Shown here: positions 5,770 to 54,122 of the stretch, piece by piece
How positions within the stretch are numbered: the stretch's first letter is position 1
Layout: the number at the start of each line of letters is the position of its first letter
Source: Paracamarosporium sp. OC-R06-R3
Lineage: Eukaryota; Ascomycota; Dothideomycetes; Pleosporales; Didymosphaeriaceae
Direction: 5' to 3'
Assembly: GCA_019828545.1 (NCBI GenBank)
Contig: JACVRA010000071.1
Location: 124,001-188,000, forward strand
Length of the DNA: 64,000 bases
Notes under the pieces: generated by a model
Seen by the model: the letters and a program-made list of their open reading frames with translations, nothing else
The model's database searches: none
What the model was told of the DNA's origin: nothing
Position numbers and translations under genes: made by a program

Positions 5770-5819
5770 CCACCGCTGAACACATCCCACCGTTGAACAC
5801 ATCCCACCGTTGAACACAC
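5770..5819 (+). repeat. Three 17-nt tandem units in the flavohemoglobin leader
   Basis: Three near-identical units of CCACCGYTGAACACATC run to within 19 bases of the flavohemoglobin ATG. The first unit differs by one base, and the last is 16 nt and ends differently. The array lies in the probable 5' untranslated leader. Confidence 0.9.
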
Positions 5820-5837
5820 ACACCACCACCACCCACC

Positions 5838-7100
5838 ATGGCAACCCCACTAACCGCCTCCCAAACCGCCATCATCAAGTCCACAGTCCCCGTCCTCGCC
5901 CAGTACGGCGAAACCATAACGACCAAATTCTACGCCACCATGATCGCCGCAAACCCGTCTTTGAAAAACATCTTCAACAACACGCACCAAGCAACGGGCC
6001 ACCAGCCGCGCGCCCTCGCCGGCGCCCTCTACGCCTACGCCGCAAACATCGACGACCTGGGCAAACTCAGCCCCGCCGTGGAACTCATCTGCCACAAGCA
6101 CGCCAGCCTGAACGTCCAGCCAGAGCAGTACGACATCGTCGGCGAGTACCTCCTCAAGACGATGAAAGACGTCCTCGGGGACGCGGCGACAGAGGAGATT
6201 CTCGACGCGTGGGGCGCCGCCTACTGGCAGCTGGCGAACATCATGATCCAGAAGGAGGCGCAGATGTACGCGGATACGCGGTACTGGGCGGGCTTCCAGG
6301 AGTTCCGCATCGCGCGTAAAGAGCGGGAGTCGGAGGAGATCACGTCGTTTTACTTCGAGCCTGTGGACGCGGGGCTCAAGTTGCCCGTTTTCAAGCCCGG
6401 GCAGTACGTCTCTGTGAATGTGTTTGTCGAGGAGCTAGATGGGGGCGTCTGGCAGGCGAGACAGTACAGTCTGAGCGATGCGCCGGGGAAGCCGTATCTA
6501 AGGGTCAGCGTGAAGAGGGAGGCGGGCATAGAGGTCGGCGACCCAAAGCATGTCACGCACCCGGGGTACTTGTCGAATATCCTGCATGATAGGAAGAGCG
6601 TGGGCGACGTGGTGAAGCTGTCGCATCCGTTTGGGGATTTCTTCTTTGAGGAAGAGGAGGGGCAGGAGGAGGCGCCGGTTGTGTTTGTGTCGGCGGGCGT
6701 GGGGCTGACGTGCTTGATGAATGTTTTGAATGCGTTGGTTGAGAAGGGGACGGGGAGGCAGATTACTTGGGTGCATGGGTCGCGCGATGCGAGGGTGCGG
6801 GCGTTTAGGGAGCATGTGGATGGGCTGGCGGAGAGCAATAAGAATATCCACAAGGTGTATTTCTCGTCGGCGCCGGCCGAGGGCGAGGTCCAGGGGAGAG
6901 ATTACGATGTCAAGGGCCGCATTGATCTGGATCAAGTCGGGAAAGAGTGGTTGTTCACCGAGAACAAGAAGACGCAGTATTTCACTTGCGGACCTACGCA
7001 GTTCATGCTGGACGTGGAAGCCAAGCTGAAGAGCTTGGGTGTGGATAGCGACAGGGTGCACATGGAACTGTTTGGCACGGGAGGCGTTCCGAGAGTGTAG
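5838..7100 (+). CDS. Flavohemoglobin (nitric oxide dioxygenase)
   Basis: Single-exon protein of 420 aa, the usual family length. It converts nitric oxide to nitrate using O2 and NAD(P)H, protecting cells from nitrosative stress. The globin domain fills residues 1-150. The family's B10 Tyr (Y32), E7 Gln (Q56) and proximal heme His (H86, in CHKHASLNV) are visible. An FAD-binding barrel follows with RQYSLSD, then an NAD-binding domain with GVGLTCLMNVL and YFTCGPTQFM. It ends in the typical FGTGGVP-like tail. No signal or targeting peptide is obvious, so it is probably cytosolic. The ATG sits in an ACCATGG context right after the 17-nt repeats. Orthologue of yeast YHB1 and Aspergillus fhbA type enzymes. 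The family call is very secure. Confidence 0.97.
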   Translation: MATPLTASQTAIIKSTVPVLAQYGETITTKFYATMIAANPSLKNIFNNTHQATGHQPRALAGALYAYAANIDDLGKLSPAVELICHKHASLNVQPEQYDIVGEYLLKTMKDVLGDAATEEILDAWGAAYWQLANIMIQKEAQMYADTRYWAGFQEFRIARKERESEEITSFYFEPVDAGLKLPVFKPGQYVSVNVFVEELDGGVWQARQYSLSDAPGKPYLRVSVKREAGIEVGDPKHVTHPGYLSNILHDRKSVGDVVKLSHPFGDFFFEEEEGQEEAPVVFVSAGVGLTCLMNVLNALVEKGTGRQITWVHGSRDARVRAFREHVDGLAESNKNIHKVYFSSAPAEGEVQGRDYDVKGRIDLDQVGKEWLFTENKKTQYFTCGPTQFMLDVEAKLKSLGVDSDRVHMELFGTGGVPRV

Positions 7101-15438: not shown

Positions 15439-16250
15439 GGTAAGATGAGCAATGAAGAAAGGGGTTGCGTATTTCTTTTGTTTGATATTTGAGCGCTGCA
15501 ATGCAGACGGCTTGGTGGAGCTTCATCTATTTCGGACGTTCATTGGGATAACAGTCGAAAAGCTTAAGCAGGGTGGTCCGGCTTTATCCCCAACATATGG
15601 TGGACGTGGACCGGGGCATGGCATTTTCTCGTTCGCGAGTAGAGATACTTTACCGTGGTTTTAGCAGGAGGTGTGTTGAAGCCGCAGGCTTGGTGAATTA
15701 CATGCACTTCATTGTGTTTCTAATAGACGGTGGCAGGTTTCGACCCGTGCGTGCAATGAAGAAGATGGATCTGTTTGATGCCACTCGAAGTGTGCCGCTA
15801 ATGTGTGCCATGCATTTTTTAATTCTTACACGCGCGTGACAGCAGCAAGCCTGGAGGATCTTGAACATGGGTTAGATTAGGTTAGGATAATCCACCCCGC
15901 ATCTATCATAGTGCGGGCCAAGACGCCGCTCCATCAGTCCCCAACATCACCCCGGCAGCTATCCACGCCTTGCATTCCCGCACGCTAGGCCGCGAATTAC
16001 TATCTTCCGTATCCTCAATTGGATTTTACTTTTGGTCTCCCACTGCGCAGTCTAGACGTTGGATTGTACAATACCGACTGTCGCTAGGCTGCTCTGGACG
16101 ACGTCGTTTCCCCACACTGGCTTGACTTGAGACGCACATCGGTACTCGGACTCGAATCGGACATCTCTTATATATACTACACTCGCAGTGGAATAGGCAA
16201 GAGCTAAGTACAATTCGATACGCTTCTACGGAACTCCGGGGCTTCGCACG
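15439..16250. other. Intergenic between epsin and 2EXR-like gene
   Basis: No gene is supported. A TATATATAC-like element near 16170 could serve as a core promoter for the gene at 16251. Confidence 0.5.
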
Positions 16251-17411
16251 ATGACGCACTCGAAACGAGATGTACTACTCGACCGTTCCCCAACCTCCCC
16301 CCGCTCTTGTCCGGTGGGCACAACACCCGATTTGACTGTGCAGTTTGATGCGCAGAACAAGAAGAGAAAGGTAGGGAATCAGAAAGGAAAGGTGAAATAT
16401 CCTGGCCCGGTGCGTGCTGCGCGGGATCCCGCGAATGCGCCCCAGGTTCCCGCACTGCACGACACCAATCTGCCTACACCGCAAGGCAGCACTTCGACCG
16501 AAGAGCAGCAGTCGATGGACGAAACGTTTCCGTTCCTAAATTTGCCTGCCGAGCTGCGGATGAACGTCTACCGCTGGTGCCTGTGCAGTGACGAGCCGCT
16601 GCTGCTGGACATAGCGCCTAAGGACGAGCAAAAGGATAAACAAAAGAATAGGCAAGAGGATACGTTAGAGGACTTCGAAGTAGTATTGAAGCCGACGCCG
16701 AAGCACAGCACAGTGAAAAACGCCGGTCTCAATGTCACGCTCCTCCAAACTTGCTCCCTCGTTTACAAAGAAGCGCGTCAAATTCTGTATTCCGAAAACA
16801 ATTTCATCCTCTCCATTGAATCGAGCGTCGCTACGCTGGGACACCTGCATCAGCGCTCTCGCTCGCTCATCAGATCCGTCACTCTTGCTATCCCTTCCCA
16901 TCACGATATCCTGGATAGCTTTGCAGACATGGTGCGTCTGGGACTACGCTACTGCTGGGGCCTCAGGATGCTCACTATACATCTTGACGTCATGCTTCCC
17001 GATTTCGACAACCTACCCAAAGGCCACTCCGGCGGCATCTACGCAAACGCGTTCCGGATCCTGAGGTGGCTGCCGAAAGGATGCAAGGTGATTCTCGAGG
17101 GCAACGTCAACGAGAGCGTGAAGAGGGTTGTCGCAGAGGAAGGCCGGCTGCTCGCCGAGCTTGACGAGGTGAGTTAATTTTGTTTTCCTTTTACCGGTGT
17201 TTTGGAGCGTAAAGGACTGACTCCGAACCAGGTCAGCTACTTCAGAAGACAACATCAGATGTCCGGTCGGGTCTCCGGCCATTCCTTCACGCCTAGCCAG
17301 CGGCTCGCAATGGAGCGCATGGCGCAGTCTTCAGGCGGCCGCATCTTCGACGATAACTTGCCCGTCACGGAAGAATCGTACTCGATCCGATCTCGCAGCT
17401 CGACCGGGTGA
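16251..17411 (+). CDS. 2EXR/DUF7730-like fungal protein
   Basis: Two exons (16251-17168, 17232-17411) joined in phase 0, donor GTGAGT and acceptor ACCAG, giving 365 aa. The N-terminal 95 residues are basic and disordered, with a KKRK nuclear-signal-like patch. The middle starts with FPFLNLPAELRMNVYRWCL and continues through LLQTCSLVYKEARQILYSENNF. That is the hallmark of the large ascomycete 2EXR/DUF7730 group, which is F-box-like in its opening helix pattern. A Lys/Glu/Gln-rich insertion sits between these blocks. The C-terminal exon is Ser/Arg-rich. Members are numerous in plant-associated fungi and mostly uncharacterised. No function should be inferred beyond the family. Confidence 0.8.
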
Positions 17412-18101
17412 ACCAAGGAATGAACGCCACGGTGCTTGTTCTGAAGCCATGCTCTGATCGCTTAGGCGGATTATCCCCGCCATACCGAGCGTTATGCGGC
17501 GCCATCTTACGATACGACGTCTCCAGCTTTTCTTCGGTATGCCGACATGTACTATTATAACTATGCCTCTTGGATGCGCACATCATTGTTTGCGATTATC
17601 TATCTATTTCCAGCCCGTGTCTTGGGGCTCGGGACTTCTGGATCTGGCGTAACGAAGTGGATGGGATGGGATGTTTCGTGCAGCTTTAGCATTGCAGTTC
17701 CTCCATATCTCTCCCCCTTACGAGGTACGTGCCGCGGTGGCGGAGGGCGATTCAACGAACACAAATAGTAACGTCTCTCTCTCTCTCTTTCTTATCTCGT
17801 TTTGCGGATCTTGTGTTTCGTGGCGGCTTTGTAAGTATGTATATCACGTAGGAATGCAGAATGCACTATGCAAATCATTACAAGAAATGTCCGGTCTTTG
17901 TTGTACTTCACAGCACTTCGTATCATATCATGACTATGTCTAGTCTATCTCTCTCAGCCTGTGCTAGCCCATCCCATCTCTCTGGTCTCATCCCAGCTTC
18001 CCTCCCCCCCGTTACACGCTTACACACTACCAAGCCTTGCCCTTCCCCTTCCCCTTGCCCTTATCCACACTCCCAAGACATCTAACCTAACCTAACCTAC
18101 T
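17412..18101. other. Intergenic 3' region between convergent genes
   Basis: Contains CT-rich runs (about 17775-17795) and CCCTTCCCCTTCC tracts near 18040. Short TAACC repeats at 18083-18098 lie just beyond the stop of the minus-strand precursor gene. No gene is supported. Confidence 0.5.
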
Positions 18102-18575
18102 CTACTCGTCCTCCACCTTGACCACGTTCTTCCCATGGTACTGAGGCTCGCGCTTCTCGTCTGTGATCTTAACCACGTTCTTCCCGTGGTACTGGCGTTT
18201 TTCATCTACCAGCTTGACAACGTTTTTTCCGTGGTATTGAGGCTGGGGGGAGCGCTTCTCCTCGGTAATCTTAACCACGTTCTTGCCGTGGTACTGAGGT
18301 TGGGGGGAGCGCTTCTCGTCTGCGATCTTGACGACGTTCTTCCCGTGGTACTGCCTTTTCTCATCTACCAGCTTGACGACGTTCTTTCCGTGGTATTGCG
18401 GTTCGCGCTTTTCTTCGGCGATCTTGATGACGTCCTTTCCGCGGTAGACCTCCGGCTCTATGTCACTAGATCAGCGTCTGGAAAGGATTGCTCCTGTAAA
18501 GGGCTTGTACTTACCCACAGGGGCAGCAACCGCAGCCACAACGATAGCGGTGAGGGTAATGATTGTGAACTTCAT
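18102..18575 (-). CDS. Secreted Kex2-processed repeat protein, candidate RiPP precursor
   Basis: Two exons on the minus strand (18575-18515 and 18457-18102; donor GTAAGT, acceptor CATAG) give 138 aa. Residues 1-18 form a classic signal peptide (MKFTIITLTAIVVAAVAA). The rest is seven tandem units of 15-19 residues, each of the first six ending in Lys-Arg, the Kex2 protease site. Six units carry an identical core YHGKNVVK. The first, nearest the signal peptide, is degenerate (YRGKDVIK). Units differ in the spacer before the core (EPQ, Q or SPQPQ) and the acidic run before KR (IADE, LVDE, ITEE, ITDE). Family knowledge: this layout defines Kex2-processed repeat proteins, including precursors of ustiloxin-type RiPPs and some pheromones. 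The adjacent UstYa-type gene favours a RiPP. It is not a known core to me, so the product is inference. Confidence 0.9.
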
Positions 18576-19344
18576 GTCGGGAACGTTCTTGTTGGCTTGA
18601 TGCACAGTGAGCGAGGTTCAGAACACTGACGTTTCAGGTCTCATCCGATGGATAGATATACGAGTCTATACATTGGCATTCGTGGTAATCGCTAATCGAT
18701 CACAGCGATTTCCCGCCCCCCAGAGCAGGCAGGTTTCCCTTACAGTCTTGATATGCTGCGTAATTCTGATGTGACCTGCCGATTTCGTTGAAAGGCCAAA
18801 GACGCTCTAGCCAAAACCATTTCTCCAGCCCTCTGGCTTTCCGAGTGTATAATCCTGGAGGATTCGTGGTTGTTCTACCACAGTGGGGGGCACACAGATT
18901 GATAGATACCTGGAACGAAGTGGAGCACAGCTCTAGTAAACTATTGGGTGCCTCTGGTGCTTAGCTCCCTATCCAGTGGCGTAATCGTCTAGCTGCAAGG
19001 CGTAAACGAGATATGCATTGCGAGGCTTAGCTACAACAAGAAGCTTCGCAAGCCTTTCCAGCACGTGAGCCGATCGCGTTCGTACTCGGTGTTGCTTAAC
19101 GGTGTACGAGCATAATCTCCTTCCGCAAGAAGTTAAGCGAACCATGGTATCTTGGTCGACGGTAGTCTATGGGAATCCTTGAGGGTTCGTAACGGTTATC
19201 TTACGGCCTTGTGAGGTATCATGGTGGGGTCCGAAAGATACTCGAGCAACTCGCCTACGATTACCGCGTTTGGTGCTGAGTTATCCACGGTCTTTCTTGA
19301 CATCCTCCGCAGTTCAGTGTCGCACTCTGCTATCGATATTCAAG
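18576..19344. promoter_or_regulatory. Shared divergent promoter of precursor and UstYa-like gene
   Basis: 769 bases separate the two divergent start codons. On the minus strand a TATATC element (about 18655-18660) lies some 80 bases upstream of the precursor ATG. A short inverted repeat, AATCC-TGGA-GGATT, occupies 18851-18864. A CACGTG E-box is at 19062-19067. These are visible sequence patterns, and regulatory function is inferred. A 5S-rRNA-like relic also lies here. Confidence 0.5.
19100..19192 (+). pseudogene. Degenerate 5S rRNA-like relic
   Basis: The stretch reads GTGTACGAGCATA at the left, AAGTTAAGCG in the middle and TATGGGAATCC at the right. These match, in order, the 5' arm, internal control element and 3' region of fungal 5S rRNA. 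It is about 25 bases short of the usual 119 and diverged in between, so I call it a relic, not a working gene. Dispersed 5S copies and relics are normal in Pezizomycotina. Identification is by eye only. Confidence 0.35.
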
Positions 19345-20429
19345 ATGAACGTCCGTACGTTCTTTCACAGGTTCAGGCCTTCACCGACAATCGAATACGC
19401 TAAACTTGAAGAATGCGAGAATGGTAGCACTGCGTCAGTAAGAAATAGAGTTCTTTTGTCGGTATGCCTCCGAGTTAACAAGGTCAAGACAGATTCCCAA
19501 TCTTCCAAAAACTCACCATCGTCCAGACGAAGGCTCAGCAATCACACATGTCTTAACATCTGCGTTTCCATAATCAATGTCGTCCTCCTTACTACTGCCG
19601 TTGTTGTCCTTCAAAAGTCGGACGACGCCAATTGGCTTCTCAAACGCGTAAACGCATATAGTACGTTGCGCATTACGCCCAAAGCAGATGCTTTCATCCG
19701 AAAACAGACACTGACACCTTGCTAGGCCCCGTGTTCGACTCTTTCCAGTTCAGCATGCGCGATGCAACATACAATGCCTCCTTCTTCAACGCACCCTACT
19801 CCATATACCGTGGCGACCCATCGCCCGAAGTCGATGCCGCCTGGGAAGCCATAGAGTACCCAGCACAACTACACTTCTCGCGCGAAGAAATCATCAAGAT
19901 GGGAAAGGACCCAGAAGCTGCTGCCAAACTACCGGAAGAATGGGGTCTGCATCCCACCGCAGCATCCATTACTACATACTGACCATGTTGATTAGGCTAC
20001 GGAAAAGACCGCTACTTCGGTGTCCTAGACGGACAACACTTAATTCACTGCCTCAACCTCCTCCGCCAATGGTCCCACTTCGACTACTATTTTCCAAAAT
20101 ATACCCCGCAAGCTCGCGCCCCTCCCCTCGCATCCGCCCACAAAGATCACTGCGTCGCTATTCTCCTCGAACACTTAACATGCCAACCCAGCGTGAACAT
20201 GTTTACATACTATTGGATGGAGACGCAGCCAGAGCCATACCCAAACTTTGAGATTAACAGGAAGTGCCAGAATCACGGAGAGTTGTTAGAGTGGCAGAAG
20301 GAGAGAGAGATCGCAGAGGAGTATAGAGATCTGGTGTTTGAAAGACCTGAGGGGGTTAAGGTCAGGCCGGCTGATCCGCAGCTGGCGAAGATTGAAGGGT
20401 GGGTGTGGAATGGGTCTGCGCCGTTGTGA
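19345..20429 (+). CDS. UstYa-family (DUF3328) oxidase-like protein
   Basis: Best model: exons 19345-19437, 19483-19660, 19726-19944 and 19996-20429, giving 307 aa. The first intron is only 45 nt and could be retained without breaking frame (322 aa). The protein has a short cytosolic tail, one transmembrane helix (about residues 55-75), then a lumenal domain. Two copies of the family signature HxxHC are present: HLIHC at residues 178-182 and HKDHC at 212-216. Both are intact, and the second is followed by ILLEHLTCQPSVN. UstYa-family proteins act with Kex2-cut precursors in ustiloxin, phomopsin and asperipin pathways, where they catalyse oxidative ring closure or other oxidations. Head-to-head placement with the repeat precursor supports that role here. 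A DUF3328 protein in another kind of pathway is the main alternative. Confidence 0.92.
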
Positions 20430-20724
20430 GATGGATTCGCGTTAGCTTGGACATAATGTGTATAGTTTTACTTGAGGCCTTTGGGAAGAAGATCCCGATG
20501 GTAATGCAAGTTGTACATAAAAACGATGATACAGATAATTCGAGAAAGCTTCATACGGTAGCTGCCCCACCTTGCTCAACATGGCGATCAATTGCTACCC
20601 CTCCATAACATCATCACTCTACCATATCGCGACATCATCATACATCAAAGACACATTATAAACCACGACCTCCTTACACAATGGAATCAAGGTCGTCGCT
20701 CCTCCACCACACCAGCATCGAACC

Positions 20725-21972
20725 ATGGCAATCGCAGACATCATCCCAACCGGACCTCCAGGCCAGCCAGACATCAGCTACGCCCCAGACCACGCCAAAT
20801 TCAAAGCACGTACTGAGCGGCGTCTCACCACCGAGAAGCTCCCCACCACACTCCCGCCTGGGTTTCCCGAAAAGCTCGAATCAGATCTCGTCTGGGATAA
20901 CACAGACATAGCATCACGCTACGACTGGACATACGTGCTATCACCCTCAGACCTATCCGAAATCGACACCGCACTGCAGCATTTCAAGAGCTTAGGAAAA
21001 CCCCTCGGATACATCGACCAGAGCACATTTCCCTTGCAAAATCTCCACGAAAACCTGAGACAAGTGTCACGAGACGTGCACACTGGTTTCGGATTCAAAG
21101 TCGTTAGAGGCGTCCCGGTAGACAAGTACTCACGGGAAGACGTGCTCGCCGTATACGCGGGGATCTCGGCGCATGTAGCAAACACGCGAGGACGACAGGA
21201 TCATCAATGGGAGGGGAAACCCGCCGACGTGGTGCTAAACCACATCTTTGATCTCAGCGCGAAGGTAGACGCGAATAAGATCGGGGCTCCTGCTTATACG
21301 GCAGACAAACAGGTTTTCCATACAGACAGCGGGGACGTAATTGCGTTGTTTTGTCTAGGGGAAGCTGCGTCGGGCGGAGAGAGTAAATTGAGCAGCAGCT
21401 GGAGAGTGTACAACGAGCTCGCTGCCACACGCCCCGATCTCATCCGTACGCTGGCCGAGCCATGGATAAGCGAGACGTTCGACGGCCAGGGGAAGGGATG
21501 GTCCGAACGACCGCTACTATTCTATCAGACGCCTACGCAGACGAGCCCAGAGCACATGATCATCCAGTACGCACGGCGCACCTTCACAGGCTTCCAGGGC
21601 CTCCCTCGCTCGAAGAACATCCCGCCCATCACAGAAGCCCAGGCCGAGGCGCTCGACGCACTGCACTTCCTCGCCGAGCGCTTCGCCGTCACGCTGGACT
21701 TCCAAAAAGGAGACATCCAGTTCGCGAACAACCTATCTATTTTCCACGCCAGAGATGGGTTTACGAATAGCCAGGAGAAGCAGAGGCATCTTGTGAGACT
21801 GTGGTTGAGAGACGACGAGCTGAAGTGGGATATCCCGGAACAGTTGGGCCCGAGGTTCGATAAGGTGTATAAGGATGTGCAGGCCGAGAAGCAGGTTTTC
21901 CCGCTCGAGCCGTTTGTGAGGAGCAGTGCGGCGGGGAAGGGGGTGAAGGATGATGGGTCTGTTCAGCAGTAG
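20725..21972 (+). CDS. TauD/TfdA-type Fe(II)/2-oxoglutarate oxygenase
   Basis: Single-exon protein of 415 aa. Iron ligands are readable: H199 and D201 in VFHTDSGD, and H341 in LSIFHARDGF. R358 is a likely 2-oxoglutarate-binding arginine downstream (RHLVRLWLRDD). This is the clavaminate synthase-like fold of fungal TauD-family enzymes, which hydroxylate or otherwise oxidise small molecules using O2 and 2-oxoglutarate. Length is typical for fungal members. No signal peptide or membrane helix is apparent, so it should be cytosolic. It follows the UstYa-like gene by 295 bases on the same strand, making it a candidate tailoring enzyme. Many fungal members are stand-alone metabolic genes, so cluster membership is inference. 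An upstream ATG at 20592 is out of frame and not used. Confidence 0.93.
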   Translation: MAIADIIPTGPPGQPDISYAPDHAKFKARTERRLTTEKLPTTLPPGFPEKLESDLVWDNTDIASRYDWTYVLSPSDLSEIDTALQHFKSLGKPLGYIDQSTFPLQNLHENLRQVSRDVHTGFGFKVVRGVPVDKYSREDVLAVYAGISAHVANTRGRQDHQWEGKPADVVLNHIFDLSAKVDANKIGAPAYTADKQVFHTDSGDVIALFCLGEAASGGESKLSSSWRVYNELAATRPDLIRTLAEPWISETFDGQGKGWSERPLLFYQTPTQTSPEHMIIQYARRTFTGFQGLPRSKNIPPITEAQAEALDALHFLAERFAVTLDFQKGDIQFANNLSIFHARDGFTNSQEKQRHLVRLWLRDDELKWDIPEQLGPRFDKVYKDVQAEKQVFPLEPFVRSSAAGKGVKDDGSVQQ

Positions 21973-22844
21973 GGGCTGGATGTGTGAGTGGGTTTCATGT
22001 GCAGGCACTTGGCTAGCGTCTAGAGGTTCATCTAATCTTAACCATTTCAGATTGTACACTATCCCGTAGTCCTGTTCACTATTTCGGTCAGCCTAACGCT
22101 ATAATTTTCATCGCTTTCCACTCAAAAAAACATTCTGAGAACACCGATTCAACAGAACAAAAAACAACCCCCTCACAAGAACCGTACCAAACGAAACTTC
22201 ATATTCTCATACTTCCCTTCAAATACCAAGAAAATACACTTACACCTACTCCCCCTTAAACACACTCAGCTATCTCCAACCGCATACGATAAAACTACTC
22301 ATCCTACCCGCTTAACACGTTCTCCATGTATACACACGCCGTGCTGCTACATAGCACAGCACAATCTACAACACACCACCTGTCTAACGTCACCAAACAA
22401 AGCATCTTACCCACATCACCCACCAAACCACATCCCACCATGTCGTCTCTCCAAAGCACAACCCAAGACACCCGTACATATCTTAAAAAGGCAAATGCAC
22501 AGCGGTCAAAACCCTAGACAAGACGAGAAGAGACGAGATAAGAACCAACACAGCACATCTGCATAGTTTACCATCGCGTGCGAGTAAAACAAAACAATGA
22601 CTTGGTATCACTAGCAACACATACACAAGACGAAAAAAAAAAAGAAACGCCATGCACAACCACCTATCCAACCGCAATCGATCGACACAGCCACCTTTCC
22701 TCCGCTCACTACCTACCAAACCACATATGCAACGCAACGCAACGCAACGCTCACAACACAACCCACCAATGCATGCACCGACGACAAAGCGAAATGAGAA
22801 AAAGCCGCCCACCACCTCTAGCCAGATTTTAGAAACAGCTCACC
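21973..22844. other. Convergent intergenic region, A/C-rich
   Basis: Lies between the convergent TauD-like gene and SCT1-type gene. It is rich in A and C on the plus strand and contains a short AACGC array at 22731-22750. No gene is supported. Confidence 0.5.
22731..22750. repeat. AACGC tandem repeat
   Basis: Four consecutive AACGC units, a minor microsatellite in the 3' flank of the acyltransferase gene. Confidence 0.85.
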
Positions 22845-25265
22845 TCACCTATCCTTCCTCCCCATCGTCAACCCCTCATTCGAGGCCTCACTCCGAGGCG
22901 AGCTCGGCCCGCTTTCCTCCCCCTGATGCCACTCCTCAACGCTACTCCTCCTGTGCCCCCGACTCCGCATCCCGCTTTTAATCCTCTTGCTAACCTCGTC
23001 GAGATTCCCATCAATCGTGCTGAACGGCTTAAGCTGGAACCCCTGCCCAAAGCCGCCGCTCGCCCGGCGACTGTGATGCTTCTTAGGCGTCGACGGCCGC
23101 GTGCTGAAGATGTCCTGGTTCGCGAGATCGGTGTAGGACTCGTTCTTGGGGAGGCCGTTGCGGTCTGAGGAGGGCGATGTAGGGGAGGCGGGGAAGTCGT
23201 AGGACTCGACGGGCTCGGGTGCTTCTTTTTCGGCGTCTTCTTTGGATTTTTGGCGCGGGGGTGTTGTGGGTGGGGAGTGCGTGAAGGGATCCGAGATGAT
23301 GCGCTTGGAGTGGAAGTCGTCGAACATCTCGGGGCCGAGCGTGTTGATGATGTCGGTGAGGCGTTCGGCGAGCTTTTCGCGGCGGGCCTGCGCCCTCGCG
23401 AGTTCGTTGCCGGTCCAGGGGTTCATCATTTTGACGAGCGGACCGAGCGATCGGAGGATGTCCATGGCCACTTCTCCGAAGCGTAGTGCGGCGTATGTCA
23501 CGGTAGGGTAGATGAATATTTGCGCCAGGATGAGGTACCTCTTCCTTATTCCAGGTGGTAGATAGCCGAAACAATGATTGTAAGAATAGAGCCAGGTCAC
23601 AATAACGACGTAGTAGGTGTAAACCAGTGGCGCGACGGCCATGGCGACAAGAAGCTTCCAGGTGGCCAAGACGTCCCTCGCTTGTACCTTGACGTTGGAC
23701 TCTGCAAGTGCTTGTTTCGCCTTGACGTTTGAGTAGATTTTACAGGCGACGAAGACCAAGCCGAAAAGCAGAGTCCCAGGAACCACAAATATGGACAGAA
23801 CAGCGAGCTTCAAGAGTCGATACCAGAAAAGGAAGAAGCATGTGATGAAGCTGACTCTGGCGTATTGTACCTGATGATCTCTAACACGCAGGGCCAATAT
23901 TTGCTGGTTGTAGCTCAAGACTTCTTTTTTGAGGTCCACAATGCGTGGATCGTCCTTGTACTTGTTATATCCCTGGATGAGACGGCGGTTGAGCTCGACG
24001 ACGCGGGGTAACGGAAGCTTCGTGCCTTTGGGATTGTAGAGGCGACGCACAGCTTGAATCAACTAGTAAAACATGTTAGAGGGAGATGAATGAGGAAATA
24101 GTGCTGCATACCATGAGTGTGTCGTAGTCAGGGGCTGTCACTGTGACGGACATGAGCCCTTCGCGGATAGTCTCTAGCATTTGTCCAATAGCTTCTCGTC
24201 TTTCGCCAGCCTGAAACCTCTGCGCAAGTTCTACGGGCACTTCAATAGCATTGCCAAACTCGATGACAGCCCTTGAGCGGAACTTGTGAGCGTGGAAGTA
24301 GTTCATGCCGACCGGGATGATTTTCAAGTTACAATCCGGCTTCGAGGCTACTGTGCCTAGGGACATGATGGCAACACCGGCTGGGTGGTGTTAGTTGAGT
24401 GATTTATCGCTCGTTGCACCTTTTTACCCACCTTTAAGGGGTAAAAGTTCCGTTCGATCATGGCTACCGCCTTCAGGGAAGATAGCAATAGTACCTCCTT
24501 GGTGCAGCACGGTATGCACGGCATCGTAGACTTCCGTTTGGTTGAGCTTTGGTGCGATTTGGAAAACGGTCCCTTCGTAGCCGGGCGCAGGACCTATTGC
24601 AGACGATGCGCCGTTAACAAATGTTCCATCCTCGGTCATGTCGTTCCGGCCGGTCAACTGCTGCATGGCGACTCCGCCCTTAAAGGGTCGCTTGAGCCTG
24701 ATCTCTTCCGGACCCTTGATCTCCACTATCTCGGCAGAGGCAGCCACGTTGTTGACCTTGGGCAAAACCACGGAACCTCCAACCTGGAAATCGTTCGCCT
24801 CGAAGTTTGTGTCCACGCCGCGTAGGAGACAGGGATCGTTGATAGGATCTGGAAGGTATATCTTTCCCGGAGCGGGCCTTGTCTTGTCCATCGCTCGTCC
24901 TACAGGCACGGCACCCGAAGCCGCTGCCATGGTTCCCACAAACTTGCGCTTCATGGATTTCTCGGCGGTGAGGACGTGTATGCGGCGGTCGGTCTCTTTC
25001 TTGACCACGCGCATTAATATCAGAGGGTCGACGAACTGCCGACGTCAGTACCATATCGAAAGCACACCCACGGGTTATAGCTGACCTGGTTCGCGTGTGG
25101 TGCGCACACGAACAGTACGGGCCCTTCCTTGGGAACCTTCCAGCTCCCTCTTGGGTGCACTTCGCGGAAGAAGAGCTCCACCAGCACCGAGAACGTCCAG
25201 AGGAATGCATCGTAGACATATTTGTTCATGTACCCGATCTCCTTCTTCTTTTTATGAATCGCCAT
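22845..25265 (-). CDS. Glycerol-3-phosphate O-acyltransferase (Sct1/Gpt2 type)
   Basis: Four exons on the minus strand: 25265-25086, 25035-24432, 24380-24112 and 24062-22845, giving 756 aa, as expected for yeast Sct1/Gpt2. The enzyme makes lysophosphatidic acid, the first committed step of glycerolipid synthesis, at the ER. Motif HANQFVD (residues 57-63) is recreated exactly at the exon 1/2 junction and is the acyltransferase histidine-aspartate motif. FPEGGSHD, LPLKAGVAIM and IPVGMNYFHAH are further conserved blocks, two of them split by introns, which validates the model. Several transmembrane segments lie between about residues 430 and 590. The C-terminal 150 residues are polar and Ser/Pro-rich, a likely phosphoregulated tail. 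The start at 25265 gives the normal MAIHKKKK... amino terminus. Confidence 0.95.
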
Positions 25266-46828: not shown

Positions 46829-48715
46829 ATGCAGCTCTTGACCTTTGCGGTGCTGTTGATTGCGCCCTTGATCGGCCAATTCGTTTATCGGTATTGGACC
46901 AATCCATTGCGGAAGATTCCCCCGGCGCATCCTCTTGCACATTTCACGTCGCTATGGATCAATTATGTGCGTTGGCGATCTGTCCAGAACGCGACGCTTA
47001 AGCATGCACACGAGACCAAGGGACCAATAGTGTGTCTTGGACCAAACGAGGTCAGCGTGAATTGTGTAAAAGGAGGTATAAGAGACGTCTATGCAGGTGG
47101 ATTTGAGAAGGCCAATTTGAACGAGACGTTCAATTGGTATGCGTTCTTTACAAACTATGGGTGAGTTATCTGTGCTCAGCGTATTGCGTGTCCCAAGTAT
47201 TGACGAATTACGTATAGTGAGCATAACATGTTCTCAACGGGGAGAAACAAACCGCATTCGACGCGTAAACGGATGCTCAGCAACATCTACAGCAAGTCTG
47301 TGATCACTGCATCGCCTGCTCTGCTCGCCCAGGTCAGCACAATAATCCATGAGCGCTTCTTGCCACGCCTCGCATCGACCTTCTCGAACGAAGACCCGGG
47401 AGTCTTGAATGCGTGCGCGCTGCTAAATGCTGCTACCATGGACATTGTGACCGGCTACATCTTCGGATTGAAATCGAGCTCTAACTTGATCAACAATCCA
47501 AAACAATTGTCCTGGTTCCTCGATCTATACAACTCTCGGCGGTCTTTCAACTTCTGGCCGCAAGAGCTCCCTGCCTTGACAACATTCGTGAAGAAGTGGT
47601 TTGGCTATGATTTGGTACCCAAATGGGTTGCCGAAGCGAACGGAGAGATCGAGGCTTGGACGAAGAGCATGTGCGAAAGCGCGGCCAAAGTCATAGAGCA
47701 GGGAGCTGGGAATATTGCTGACACACCGGTCGTGTACGAGCAGCTTTCTGCCGCACTATTCACCGAGGCCAAGAAAACCGGCCAGAATGAATTGGATCGT
47801 GATTCGAGAGCAGCGAGCGAGGTCTTAGACCAACTGGCTGCGGGCTTCGACACGTCTGGTATAACACTGACCTATGTTATCCACGAACTGTGCCGACATC
47901 CTGACGTCCAGGCACGCCTTCAGCAAGAGCTTCGCACATTGTCACCACCCATTCTATCCTCGTCTGCGCCCGCTCTTCCGGATGGGAAGGCAATGGACGC
48001 GCTGCCGCTTCTCCACGCCGTGATCTGGGAAACGCTGCGTCTTCATCCAGCAATTCCGGGCCCGCAGCCGCGTGTCTCCCCTCCGCAAGGATGCCGTCTT
48101 GGTTCCGAAGACAAAGCCTACTATGTACCTGGTGGTGTAAGGGTGAGTGCCAGTGCCGGTCTGTTGCACTTGAACGAAAAGGTATATCCAAAGGCGGACG
48201 AGTGGAAGCCAGAGCGGTGGCTGGAGCTTGAGAAGCTCGACGAGGAGAAGAGGAGAGAAATGGAAAGCAGGTGGTTTTGGGCTTTCGGAAGGTCAGTGAA
48301 TATCTTGTGTAAGGCTGACGCATTTGCTTACCTTATTCAGTGGTGGAAGGATGTGTGTTGGAAGCCATCTGGCCGTATATCGTAAGTTGCTCCTTTTCTT
48401 GTATGAACAGGTTACCTTATCTGTGCACTGCTACAATGTGCAGAGGTGCTTGGGACTGAGTCATGAAATGCTAGCCCAAAGCTGGCCCCTTCAGGCTGGG
48501 CTTGTGCAACACCTCCCAGCTCCCTAGCTTGGCTGGGCCCACGCCATGCGGCACCCGCTGACATCACTCTAGAGATGAAATACATCGTCGCAGCCTTGTA
48601 CTCCAACTACACAACGGCTGTCGTCGACGACACCGGTATCGAGCAATCAGACGCATATACCGCGCCCCCAAAGAACAACAAGCTTCTCATCAGACTGCAG
48701 GGGCTAGACTCGTGA
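46829..48715 (+). CDS. Cytochrome P450 monooxygenase
   Basis: Four exons (46829-47160, 47218-48291, 48341-48381, 48573-48715) give 529 aa. An N-terminal membrane anchor (about residues 3-22) is followed by a basic/Pro-rich hinge. The I-helix motif AAGFDTSG, the ExxR motif in WETLRLHP, PERW, and the heme loop FGSGGRMCVGSHLAVY are all present. The heme loop is rebuilt across the exon 2/3 junction, with the axial Cys in exon 3. Exon 4 restores the C-terminal beta region (ALYSNYTTAVVDD, then KNNKLLIRL). The last intron is 191 nt and could instead be read through for about 48 codons, but that frame lacks the family C-terminus. ER membrane enzyme of unknown substrate. Adjacency to GH43 gives no clear pathway. 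Confidence 0.92.
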
Positions 48716-51700: not shown

Positions 51701-52928
51701 GTGAAGCTCGCCTCTTCCCTGGATCCCGTCCGAAGTCTGCCTTCCCGTCGCTCGTTGTGCTGAACATTCACCAGACTGTCGCTCCTGCCTTGTTGCGTCG
51801 ACCAGAAAGAGAAGGCTCGCCCGGACTCTCAACACCAGCGCCGCCGCGTCGGCGCCATCGTGAAGCAACGTCGCCAAAGTTTGAGGGAGAGGCCTCGCCG
51901 GGCAGTGCGTGGGCGAGATATACCAAGCTCCGCGAACCCTACTGGCTGCGCTAGAGAGCACTTCACTGCAGCCCGTCGCGCGGCTCCGCCTTCTAGTGCC
52001 CACCTGCCAGCGACACCTCCTAGCCGATCACTGAAGGGCGAACCACATCTACGGGCTAGGCCATAGAACGATTGCGGAGACACCGGTGCTGGAGCGTTCG
52101 CAGAAAGCCATCGGCAGGCCCACTAAGCCGCATCTTCAACCTCTATCATCGCCGCCAAACCCTTTGTCGTCCTCCATCCACCCGACAAGTGCGCTTGATC
52201 AGCGCCCGCGACCTGCGTTGCACCGCTGCACCTTGCCCGGAGACAAGTGCAAGCTACCACGGCTGCCCGCCAACCGCTCCCTTTGTTCACCCCGTCTGAC
52301 AACCGCGGTTCTCACGGCCGCTGGACGAAGCGACCCATTCGACTATGCCGACGCACTGAGGAGCCCGCAGAAAGAAGAAAACACCCGCCCTCCCTTCCAA
52401 AGGCCTCCGGATTGCATCGTCTCTCTTCTTCTGGCCGCAAGTTTGACCGCGGGTGTGTGACTTGGCGCAGTGGAGTCGCTGCTCGCCCGCGAGCTCTCAG
52501 CAGAGACGCTGCGCCGCCCGCGGGCCTCTTGGGCCTGTTCAGGCAGCAATATCGTGGGCTCAACAGGCACGGCGCCTTGAAGCAGTCTCCAGCCCTCCTT
52601 CGTCTGATTTCCATTCGGGATCCCAGGACAGGTCGCACAACCGTCCGAGGACTATTTGTGGGGGCGTTCCGGTCTTTTCTTCTGCCCACTTTGGAGTAAT
52701 GGTAAAGCTGGTATTCGTTCAAACACAGTTTTTGATCTTGTTGGGGTGGATGGCGTTGCGGCTCCTTCCTCCCAACGCGCACACTCCTGCCTGCAACAGA
52801 CTTACCCAAGCGCAGCCCAGGCGGCGGCGACCACAACCACTTTTCTGCACCCGCTCCCAGTTCGGTTCGGGAAATCTTGTACTCCTCCGCTTCGATCGCA
52901 GCTCTTCCCCCAGGGCCAGATCGAAGCC
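48716..52928. other. 4.2-kb gene-free region upstream of velvet gene
   Basis: No gene is supported. From about 50.3 kb the sequence becomes GC-rich and C/G-skewed, with many overlapping open frames on both strands, none with a recognisable domain or splice pattern. The right part (about 51.4-52.9 kb) reads like a long leader rich in small upstream frames. One open frame runs continuously from 52656 into the velvet gene, but its extra N-terminus looks unconserved. Confidence 0.5.
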
Positions 52929-54122
52929 ATGGATATGTACGTGCATTCGCAGTACATGCCCTACACGCCGCATAGCTCCGTGCCTTACCATGGCGCCAAT
53001 CGTACCACCAGGAGCAAGCTCTCCGACAACATCATGACGGATGCGAAGGGAACCTTCAACAACCCCGATATCACGTTGGTAATGCGCCAGGAACCCAAGG
53101 AAGCCCTTGTCCTGAGCGCTGGCAAGGAGAAGAGCCGTAAGCCCGTGGACCCGCCACCCATTGTTCAGCTCAAGGTAAACTCGGATGTGGAGTCTAGTCA
53201 GCACTTCCTACAGAGCCCGTACCTGTTTCTGGTTGCGGATCTATGGAAGGCGGACAAAGACGAGCGCTGGGAGGACCGTAGCGGGAACAGCCTCTACGGC
53301 GGCCTCTGTTCGTCACTGCATCGCCTCAAGGATATTGACAACAAGGACGGCGGTTTCTTCATCTTTGGTGATATCTCCGTCAAGATGACTGGCAGCTTCC
53401 GTCTCCACTTCAGCCTGTACGACCTCCAAAAGGAACTCAACGCGGCAGTCTTTCTCGGAAGCATCGTTACTCAGCCGTTCAAGGTGATGCCTCCCAAGGA
53501 TTTCCAGGGCCTAGAAGAATCCACGTACCTCTCCAGAGCGTTCTCAGACCAAGGCGTCCGTCTTCGTCTGCGCAAGGAGCCGAGGGCATTTGCAGGCCAG
53601 AAGCGTCCCTACTTCGCCGAAACGATGCCTCCCACTCAATCAAACGCTCCAGTCAGGTCCGGCACTTCATACTACGACGACGACGCTCCGCAACAGAAAC
53701 GGTATCGTGCAAACACAGAGGATCGTAAGGAGACCTATGCCGACCACGTTGTTGTCACACAGCCAAGCTTCTCGTCGTCCTACACCCCGACTCCTCAGAC
53801 AAACTTCCCCGCCTCGACTTACGCCGCGCCGCTGCCTCAGGCAAGCTACACTTCTTCGTATACGTCGCTTCCTCAGACGAGCTATTCCTCGTCGTATGCG
53901 TCCCTCCCCCAGTCTAACTACGCTTCACAATACCTCTCGTCCTCATCATACCAACCTGTTCGCCCTTCAGCCGAAACAAGGTCCTACGTTGGAAACTACC
54001 CGAGTAATATCAACCTTGGAAGTATCCCGCAGCCAAATCTGTCACAATACCCGGAGATTCGCGCGGAGGATACATGGGACGTCCCCGGCGGCTGGCCTAA
54101 TCAGCCCGCTTCGGGTACTTAA
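52929..54122 (+). CDS. Velvet-domain regulator (VosA/VelC-like)
   Basis: Single exon, 397 aa from the Met at 52929. The velvet domain spans roughly residues 45-220. It contains LVMRQEPKEALVLSAGKEKSRK (read in two overlapping pieces), DPPPIVQLKV, SSLHRLKDIDNKDGGFFIFGDISV and the closing DQGVRLRLRKEPR. A QKRPYF motif follows. The C-terminal half is Ser/Tyr/Pro/Gln-rich with repeats of the SLPQTSYSSSYA kind. Velvet proteins are NF-kappaB-like DNA-binding factors that couple development, spore formation and secondary metabolism. The compact domain without VelB's long insertion and with RQEP...GKEK...PPPIVQL points to the VosA or VelC branch, which I cannot separate here. In-frame sequence extends upstream to 52656 but is unlike velvet N-termini. 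Confidence 0.9.
   Translation: MDMYVHSQYMPYTPHSSVPYHGANRTTRSKLSDNIMTDAKGTFNNPDITLVMRQEPKEALVLSAGKEKSRKPVDPPPIVQLKVNSDVESSQHFLQSPYLFLVADLWKADKDERWEDRSGNSLYGGLCSSLHRLKDIDNKDGGFFIFGDISVKMTGSFRLHFSLYDLQKELNAAVFLGSIVTQPFKVMPPKDFQGLEESTYLSRAFSDQGVRLRLRKEPRAFAGQKRPYFAETMPPTQSNAPVRSGTSYYDDDAPQQKRYRANTEDRKETYADHVVVTQPSFSSSYTPTPQTNFPASTYAAPLPQASYTSSYTSLPQTSYSSSYASLPQSNYASQYLSSSSYQPVRPSAETRSYVGNYPSNINLGSIPQPNLSQYPEIRAEDTWDVPGGWPNQPASGT

Follow-up and report, generated by a model that had tools for sequence, protein, structure and literature searches.

A putative two-gene dikaritin-type RiPP module, precursor plus UstYa, in the genome of Paracamarosporium sp. OC-R06-R3

Introduction

Dikaritins are UstYa-dependent ribosomally synthesised and post-translationally modified peptides (RiPPs), of which only five are described as reported by 2022 (PMC10512285). 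In the asperipin-2a cluster of Aspergillus flavus (aprA, aprY, aprT and aprR), a precursor with a tyrosine-containing core is served by one UstYa homologue (PMC6514808). The ustiloxin and phomopsin systems are likewise described with a Kex2-cut repeat precursor and UstYa-family proteins (PMC6514808, PMC9233826), and they employ at least two UstYa proteins along with a tyrosinase and other enzymes. Epichloecyclin (gigA) and victorin, the latter chlorinated and heavily modified, are also reported to arise from multicore precursors, presumably cleaved by Kex2, with side-chain cyclisation of the product (PMC9233826). Here, we describe a precursor gene and a UstYa gene lying head-to-head in a 64,000-nucleotide stretch of Paracamarosporium sp. 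OC-R06-R3 (hereafter the window; contig JACVRA010000071.1, positions 124,001 to 188,000), which are likely to form a minimal, asperipin-like module of the dikaritin type.

Two definitions bear on this comparison. The older one is given as a cluster with a tyrosinase, a methyltransferase, and either a transporter or a peptidase, while the newer one rests on DUF3328, the UstYa domain; asperipin-2a is also described as lacking the peptidase, and two HxxHC motifs as typical of the UstYa proteins of dikaritins (PMC12048977). Kex2-processed repeat proteins (KEPs) carry a signal peptide. By definition, they also have three or more tandem repeats, each 8 aa or longer, set between KR, KK, RK or RR sites, and 22% of 7878 KEPs were found near UstYa genes (PMC7329392).

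Results

The locus is in contig C302 of the 43.09-Mb, 337-contig genome. The first-pass annotation had placed three neighbouring genes at 18102-21972, coding for a precursor, a UstYa protein in which both HxxHC motifs are intact and a TauD-like oxygenase, and the gene models and Pfam matches agree with it:

Precursor gene (138 aa, one intron) on the minus strand, from the ATG at 18575 to a stop codon that ends at 18102
18515..18575, minus strand: precursor exon 1 (61 nt), the signal-peptide exon
18458..18514, minus strand: precursor intron, GT-AG (GTAAGT...ATAG), 57 nt
18102..18457, minus strand: precursor exon 2, with seven repeats, six KR sites, core [Q]YHGKNVVK, X-Pro spacers and stop
18576..19344: stretch between the precursor and UstYa start codons (769 bp), candidate shared promoter region
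19345..20429, plus strand: UstYa/DUF3328 (PF11807) gene, 322 aa, exons 19345-19660, 19726-19944 and 19996-20429
19661-19725 and 19945-19995, plus strand: UstYa introns
20725..21972, plus strand: TauD-like Fe(II)/2-oxoglutarate oxygenase (PF02668), 415 aa, single open frame; role in the module unsupported

The precursor model carries the six Lys-Arg sites that had been annotated, and its N-terminus, MKFTIITLTAIVVAAVAAPV, is hydrophobic and signal-peptide-like, as read by eye from the translation. With seven repeats and six KR sites, it fits the repeat part of the KEP definition. The repeat YHGKNVVK is perfect in six copies and degraded to YRGKDVIK in the first. This core had been proposed in the annotation and is retained, extended by one residue, as each of the six perfect copies has a Gln before its Tyr; variable acidic tails follow it. 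The letters after the six KR sites are, in order, EP, none, SPQP, SPQP, none and EP, with QYHGKNVVK next each time, so that removing 0, 1 or 2 X-Pro pairs reduces all six perfect copies to QYHGKNVVK. X-Pro pairs after Kex2 sites are described as the signature of Ste13 (PMC6339444), and as the starts of 0, 2 or 4 residues consist of such pairs, they point to trimming to one shared start. Kex2 and a Ste13-like peptidase would always yield QYHGKNVVK-xx-[DE]E, starting with Gln-Tyr. The computed [M+H]+ of QYHGKNVVK is 1072.590 (1070.574 minus 2H), that of its pyroglutamate form 1055.563 (1053.548 minus 2H) and that of 13-mers such as QYHGKNVVKIADE 1500.781 (1498.765 minus 2H).

Over the 15 pairs of the six perfect copies, the core shows 40 synonymous and 0 non-synonymous differences (proportion of synonymous differences, pS, 0.50), whereas the three residues after it show 21 synonymous and 40 non-synonymous differences (proportion of non-synonymous differences, pN, 0.39). 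The six cores were picked as perfect, so the zero follows from the choice and the synonymous differences are the informative part; once the degraded seventh copy is counted in, the core pN is 0.046. Many synonymous differences under an unchanged protein indicate that the six are old copies kept alike and not recent duplicates. Judged by these codon comparisons, the core is old and kept, and the locus is kept by selection. Pfam gave no family above its cut-off for the precursor, only weak TGL and Peptidase_M23_N matches below theirs. The words YHGKNV, YHGKN and HGKNVV had no match in the literature text that was searched; YHGRN occurs in one display-library paper.

The UstYa protein matches PF11807 with E 2.7e-51 (175 bits, where the cut-off is 25), has one N-terminal membrane stretch as read by eye, and carries both motifs, HLIHC and HKDHC. 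The annotation had called it divergent with its motifs intact; the motifs are intact, while "divergent" was too strong for a normal family member with this score and with a protein of Paraphaeosphaeria sporulosa 85% identical to it over 64% of the query length. In motif 1, the Cys and both His are invariant across 31 relatives; in motif 2 the first His is invariant and the Cys nearly so, while the second His is the majority residue and in neither the invariant nor the near-invariant list. No solved relative was found by sequence (best E 0.17) or, with the predicted model of the P. sporulosa relative P0001 (mean predicted local distance difference test, pLDDT, 81.2) as Foldseek query, by fold in the PDB library at E<=0.001 (best E 0.83). 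The family thus appears to lack a solved structure in that library, and since none resembles the predicted domain, the assignment of the active site rests on the motif.

The pairing of precursor and UstYa recurs in this genome. The 75 PF11807 exon matches were grouped into 48 loci by splitting where starts were more than 5 kb apart (one locus is a single below-cut-off match), and 27 of the 48 were read: the 19 best-scoring loci, with 8.2-10 kb, and a further 8, with 6 kb. Frames counted as KEP-like when at least three segments between dibasic sites shared an exact 5-residue word, with a frame minimum of 50 aa in the first scan and 40 aa in later ones; where a second reading frame covered repeats already counted, at L010 and L020, it was left out. 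KEPs were found in 13 of the 27 neighbourhoods, or 12 of 26 without the window's own. The 12 further loci are:

L006, L009, L010, L013, L014, L017, L019, L020, L026, L027, L029 and L033, on contigs C260 (four), C200, C110, C54, C42, C163, C241, C172 and C142

Their cores include TEFAPWYRATNILPASD, QWYDLTYID, VDEGFSKIIY and YARADGVPLSFNIVK. All 13 KEP loci have a divergent, head-to-head UstYa gene, where random orientation would give about 1 in 4 pairs divergent. It is also the nearest UstYa in 12 of 13, the exception being C200, with a tandem UstYa nearer than the divergent one (864 vs 916 bp). Gaps from the KEP frame to the divergent UstYa match are 866-3183 bp, and the longer ones may contain other genes.

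KEP-like frames were absent from 135 shuffled neighbourhoods and from 85 kb of control DNA. The latter comprised 57 kb of the window away from the locus plus three stretches totalling 28 kb; of these, L008 was chosen because of a weak match and is not random. Against a reported ascomycete mean of 5.25 KEPs per strain (PMC7329392), 13 in a few stretches is far above random scatter. The KEP-UstYa pairing is not chance. A weak match on C327 was dismissed as not being a KEP. KEP-bearing UstYa proteins do not form one clade: the tree needs 8 label changes, shuffled labels need 9.9 on average, and 72 of 500 shuffles were as low (KEP loci L026 and L029 were removed from this test by an 85-residue length filter). 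Elsewhere in the genome, UstYa matches at C23:92428-96666 have a tyrosinase match within 2 kb, as would be typical of a cluster of the ustiloxin kind.

Within the genome, the nearest relative of the window UstYa lies at C172:240757-241519 (51% and 47% identity in two exons); it, too, is paired with a divergent KEP, whose repeat, YARADGVPLSFNIVK, occurs three times. In both precursors the first exon is 61 nt long, the intron is in phase 1 and the signal peptide ends in AAP[VI]. Their signal parts match with E 0.002 in a single comparison and their repeats with E 0.22 or worse, so that outside the signal peptide they are not significantly alike. QYHGKNVVK and YARADGVPLSFNIVK have Tyr and a closing N-[VI]-V-K in common, which is a lead and not a result. 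A tree built from 45 UstYa sequences places the window protein beside P0001 and P0002 (100/99) and the C172 protein beside P0004 and P0007 (100/99); both groups are united with P0006 in a larger one (99/98). With midpoint rooting, the split of the window and C172 pairs is probably older than their separation from the species of the grouped relatives. A peptidase S41 match is present at C172:268338-268568, about 27 kb from the sister pair; S41 peptidases are described in dikaritin clusters (PMC6514808).

The TauD-like protein matches PF02668 with E 1.1e-36. By eye, HTDSGD and FHARDG contain what we take to be the HxD and distal His of the TauD motif. Among solved structures, the protein is related by sequence to a predicted hydroxylase (7n7v), FrbJ and gamma-butyrobetaine dioxygenase. 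The genome has 49 PF02668 matches, grouping into at least about 32 genes, and only the window's gene is within 45 kb of a UstYa match, distances being judged on shared contigs only, as genes on separate contigs cannot be compared. The best paralogues are on C113, C128, C85, C330 and C96; only C330 also has a UstYa match, about 194 kb off.

Across the window, 39 hand-chosen proteins and frames were scanned with Pfam; the window holds 93 frames of at least 150 aa, many overlapping, and such a scan could miss genes made of short exons. Nearby frames matched ENTH, DUF7730, an acyltransferase and a GH76 protein. As far as these 39 frames go, no cytochrome P450, methyltransferase or transporter adjoins the locus, as had been annotated: methyltransferase and transporter families gave no match, and the sole P450 is at 47204-48385 (plus strand), about 26 kb away. 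A velvet-factor gene (PF11754, E 5.1e-39) is at 52608-54122 (plus strand), about 31 kb from the locus; velvet factors regulate fungal development and secondary metabolism. A flavohaemoglobin-like frame with a globin and an NAD-binding domain is at 5814-7100 (plus strand). Rfam gave nothing at gathering score in 16000-24000.

Discussion

By the newer definition the window pair would belong with the dikaritins, as a KEP precursor adjoins a divergent DUF3328/UstYa gene. The secretion-type start, the Kex2-type sites, the kept core and the UstYa protein with both motifs, together with the divergent pairing, make it likely that precursor and UstYa form a minimal two-gene module like that of asperipin. 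In such a module, the precursor would enter the secretory pathway and be cleaved by Kex2 after each Lys-Arg; the Lys-Arg would be taken off by a Kex1-type carboxypeptidase and the X-Pro pairs by a Ste13-type dipeptidyl peptidase, giving copies of QYHGKNVVK with a short acidic tail. The membrane-anchored UstYa, with its HxxHC domain in the lumen, would then oxidise the peptide, and by analogy with asperipin, ustiloxin and phomopsin it would most likely link a beta carbon of the core to the side chain of Tyr. UstYa proteins are also described as desaturating residues, in phomopsins (PMC10512285), so a dehydro residue instead of a ring could be the outcome. The head-to-head layout would allow one promoter region for both genes.

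The window core YHGKNVVK differs from the asperipin-2a core FYYTGY, and X-Pro spacers follow the Kex2 sites of the window precursor, unlike those of asperipin-2a; no transporter or reductase was seen adjoining the window pair. It also differs from ustiloxin and phomopsin in having one UstYa and no tyrosinase match on its contig. The epichloecyclin and victorin cores, too, are different in sequence from that of the window.

Several results weigh against the two-gene module. The older dikaritin definition does not cover the locus, since tyrosinase and peptidase S41 have no match on C302 and none of its families, transporters included, was found among the scanned window proteins; genes in other places would therefore have to supply trimming and export. 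No homologue at E<=1 was found for the window precursor among 1167 word-sharing candidates from 5.8 billion proteins, or for the C172 precursor among 3145 candidates, so the pairing could not be traced into other species. The 27 UstYa loci were hand-picked and not random, and 85 kb is little control DNA: if KEPs were as dense there as around the UstYa loci, it should hold about 4.7 of them, which makes it a modest control by itself. Finally, the 13 divergent stretches hold no shared promoter word above background, and no motif is claimed: 7 of them contain ACCTTCCT and 5 contain AGGAAGGTG, counts that the background also reaches at its top (7 and 5).

The first-pass annotation had read all three genes as one dikaritin pathway, in which the TauD-like oxygenase would also modify the peptide, for example by hydroxylating the core Lys, Asn or Val. 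Its precursor-UstYa part is well supported, given that the pairing recurs in 12 of the 26 other loci sampled, while the inclusion of the TauD gene was set aside as unsupported after the TauD and UstYa matches were mapped genome-wide. This gene is on the same strand as the UstYa gene with 295 bp between them, its Pfam assignment is strong, and kinship with FrbJ and gamma-butyrobetaine dioxygenase makes a small amine or amino-acid-like substrate plausible. However, none of the other TauD genes found, the best paralogues among them, is within 45 kb of a UstYa match, C172 with the sister pair has no TauD match, and the protein, with no signal peptide evident by eye, is probably cytosolic. The enzyme is therefore probably a bystander. 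Accessory genes vary between clusters, so a role for it is still conceivable, and we regard the three-gene pathway as unlikely.

Slightly less likely again is an unmodified linear peptide, secreted as an alpha-pheromone-like signal, with the UstYa as a neighbour acting on another substrate. Ascomycete alpha-factor precursors are described with Kex2 sites followed by X-Pro or X-Ala pairs, as in the window, and the Ste13 signature as generally dedicated to alpha pheromones in Ascomycota (PMC6339444); most KEPs, moreover, do not adjoin DUF3328 genes (PMC7329392). The recurrence of the pairing in this genome speaks against this explanation, and pheromone KEPs are reported to be almost all without DUF3328 neighbours (PMC7329392), unlike the window precursor. 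YHGKNVVK also has neither two Cys nor PYGxPxG and is unlike the motif given for Pleosporales pheromones, PYG[L/M]P[I/V]G (PMC6339444). Searching the genome with an exact DNA pattern for that motif gave no hit, a weak check that leaves the resident pheromone unlocated. A decaying locus without a product, to which the degraded first repeat and the missing precursor homologues could point, is very improbable in view of the open frames, usable splice sites, intact motifs and six perfect cores with many synonymous and no other differences.

The two-gene module thus remains the preferred explanation: the window pair would add to the known dikaritin-type kind, and the three genes of the annotation should probably be two. 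As a two-gene locus with a sharply bounded core, it would be one of the simplest systems in which to study the action of a lone UstYa, and the C172 sister pair, with its other core, is a natural comparison. The head-to-head layout seen in all 13 loci, if true in other genomes, would give a simple rule for finding precursor genes; no such rule was found in the published literature by a narrow search without subscription papers (including the 2016 Aspergillus survey). More tentatively, and with the odds rather against it, this lineage may hold over a dozen head-to-head cassettes of precursor and UstYa that are interchangeable. Some would share ancestry but have had their cores replaced, and the window and C172 pairs would represent an enzyme and a core diverging together. 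If so, the Tyr and the closing N-[VI]-V-K would mark the residues that the UstYa enzyme needs.

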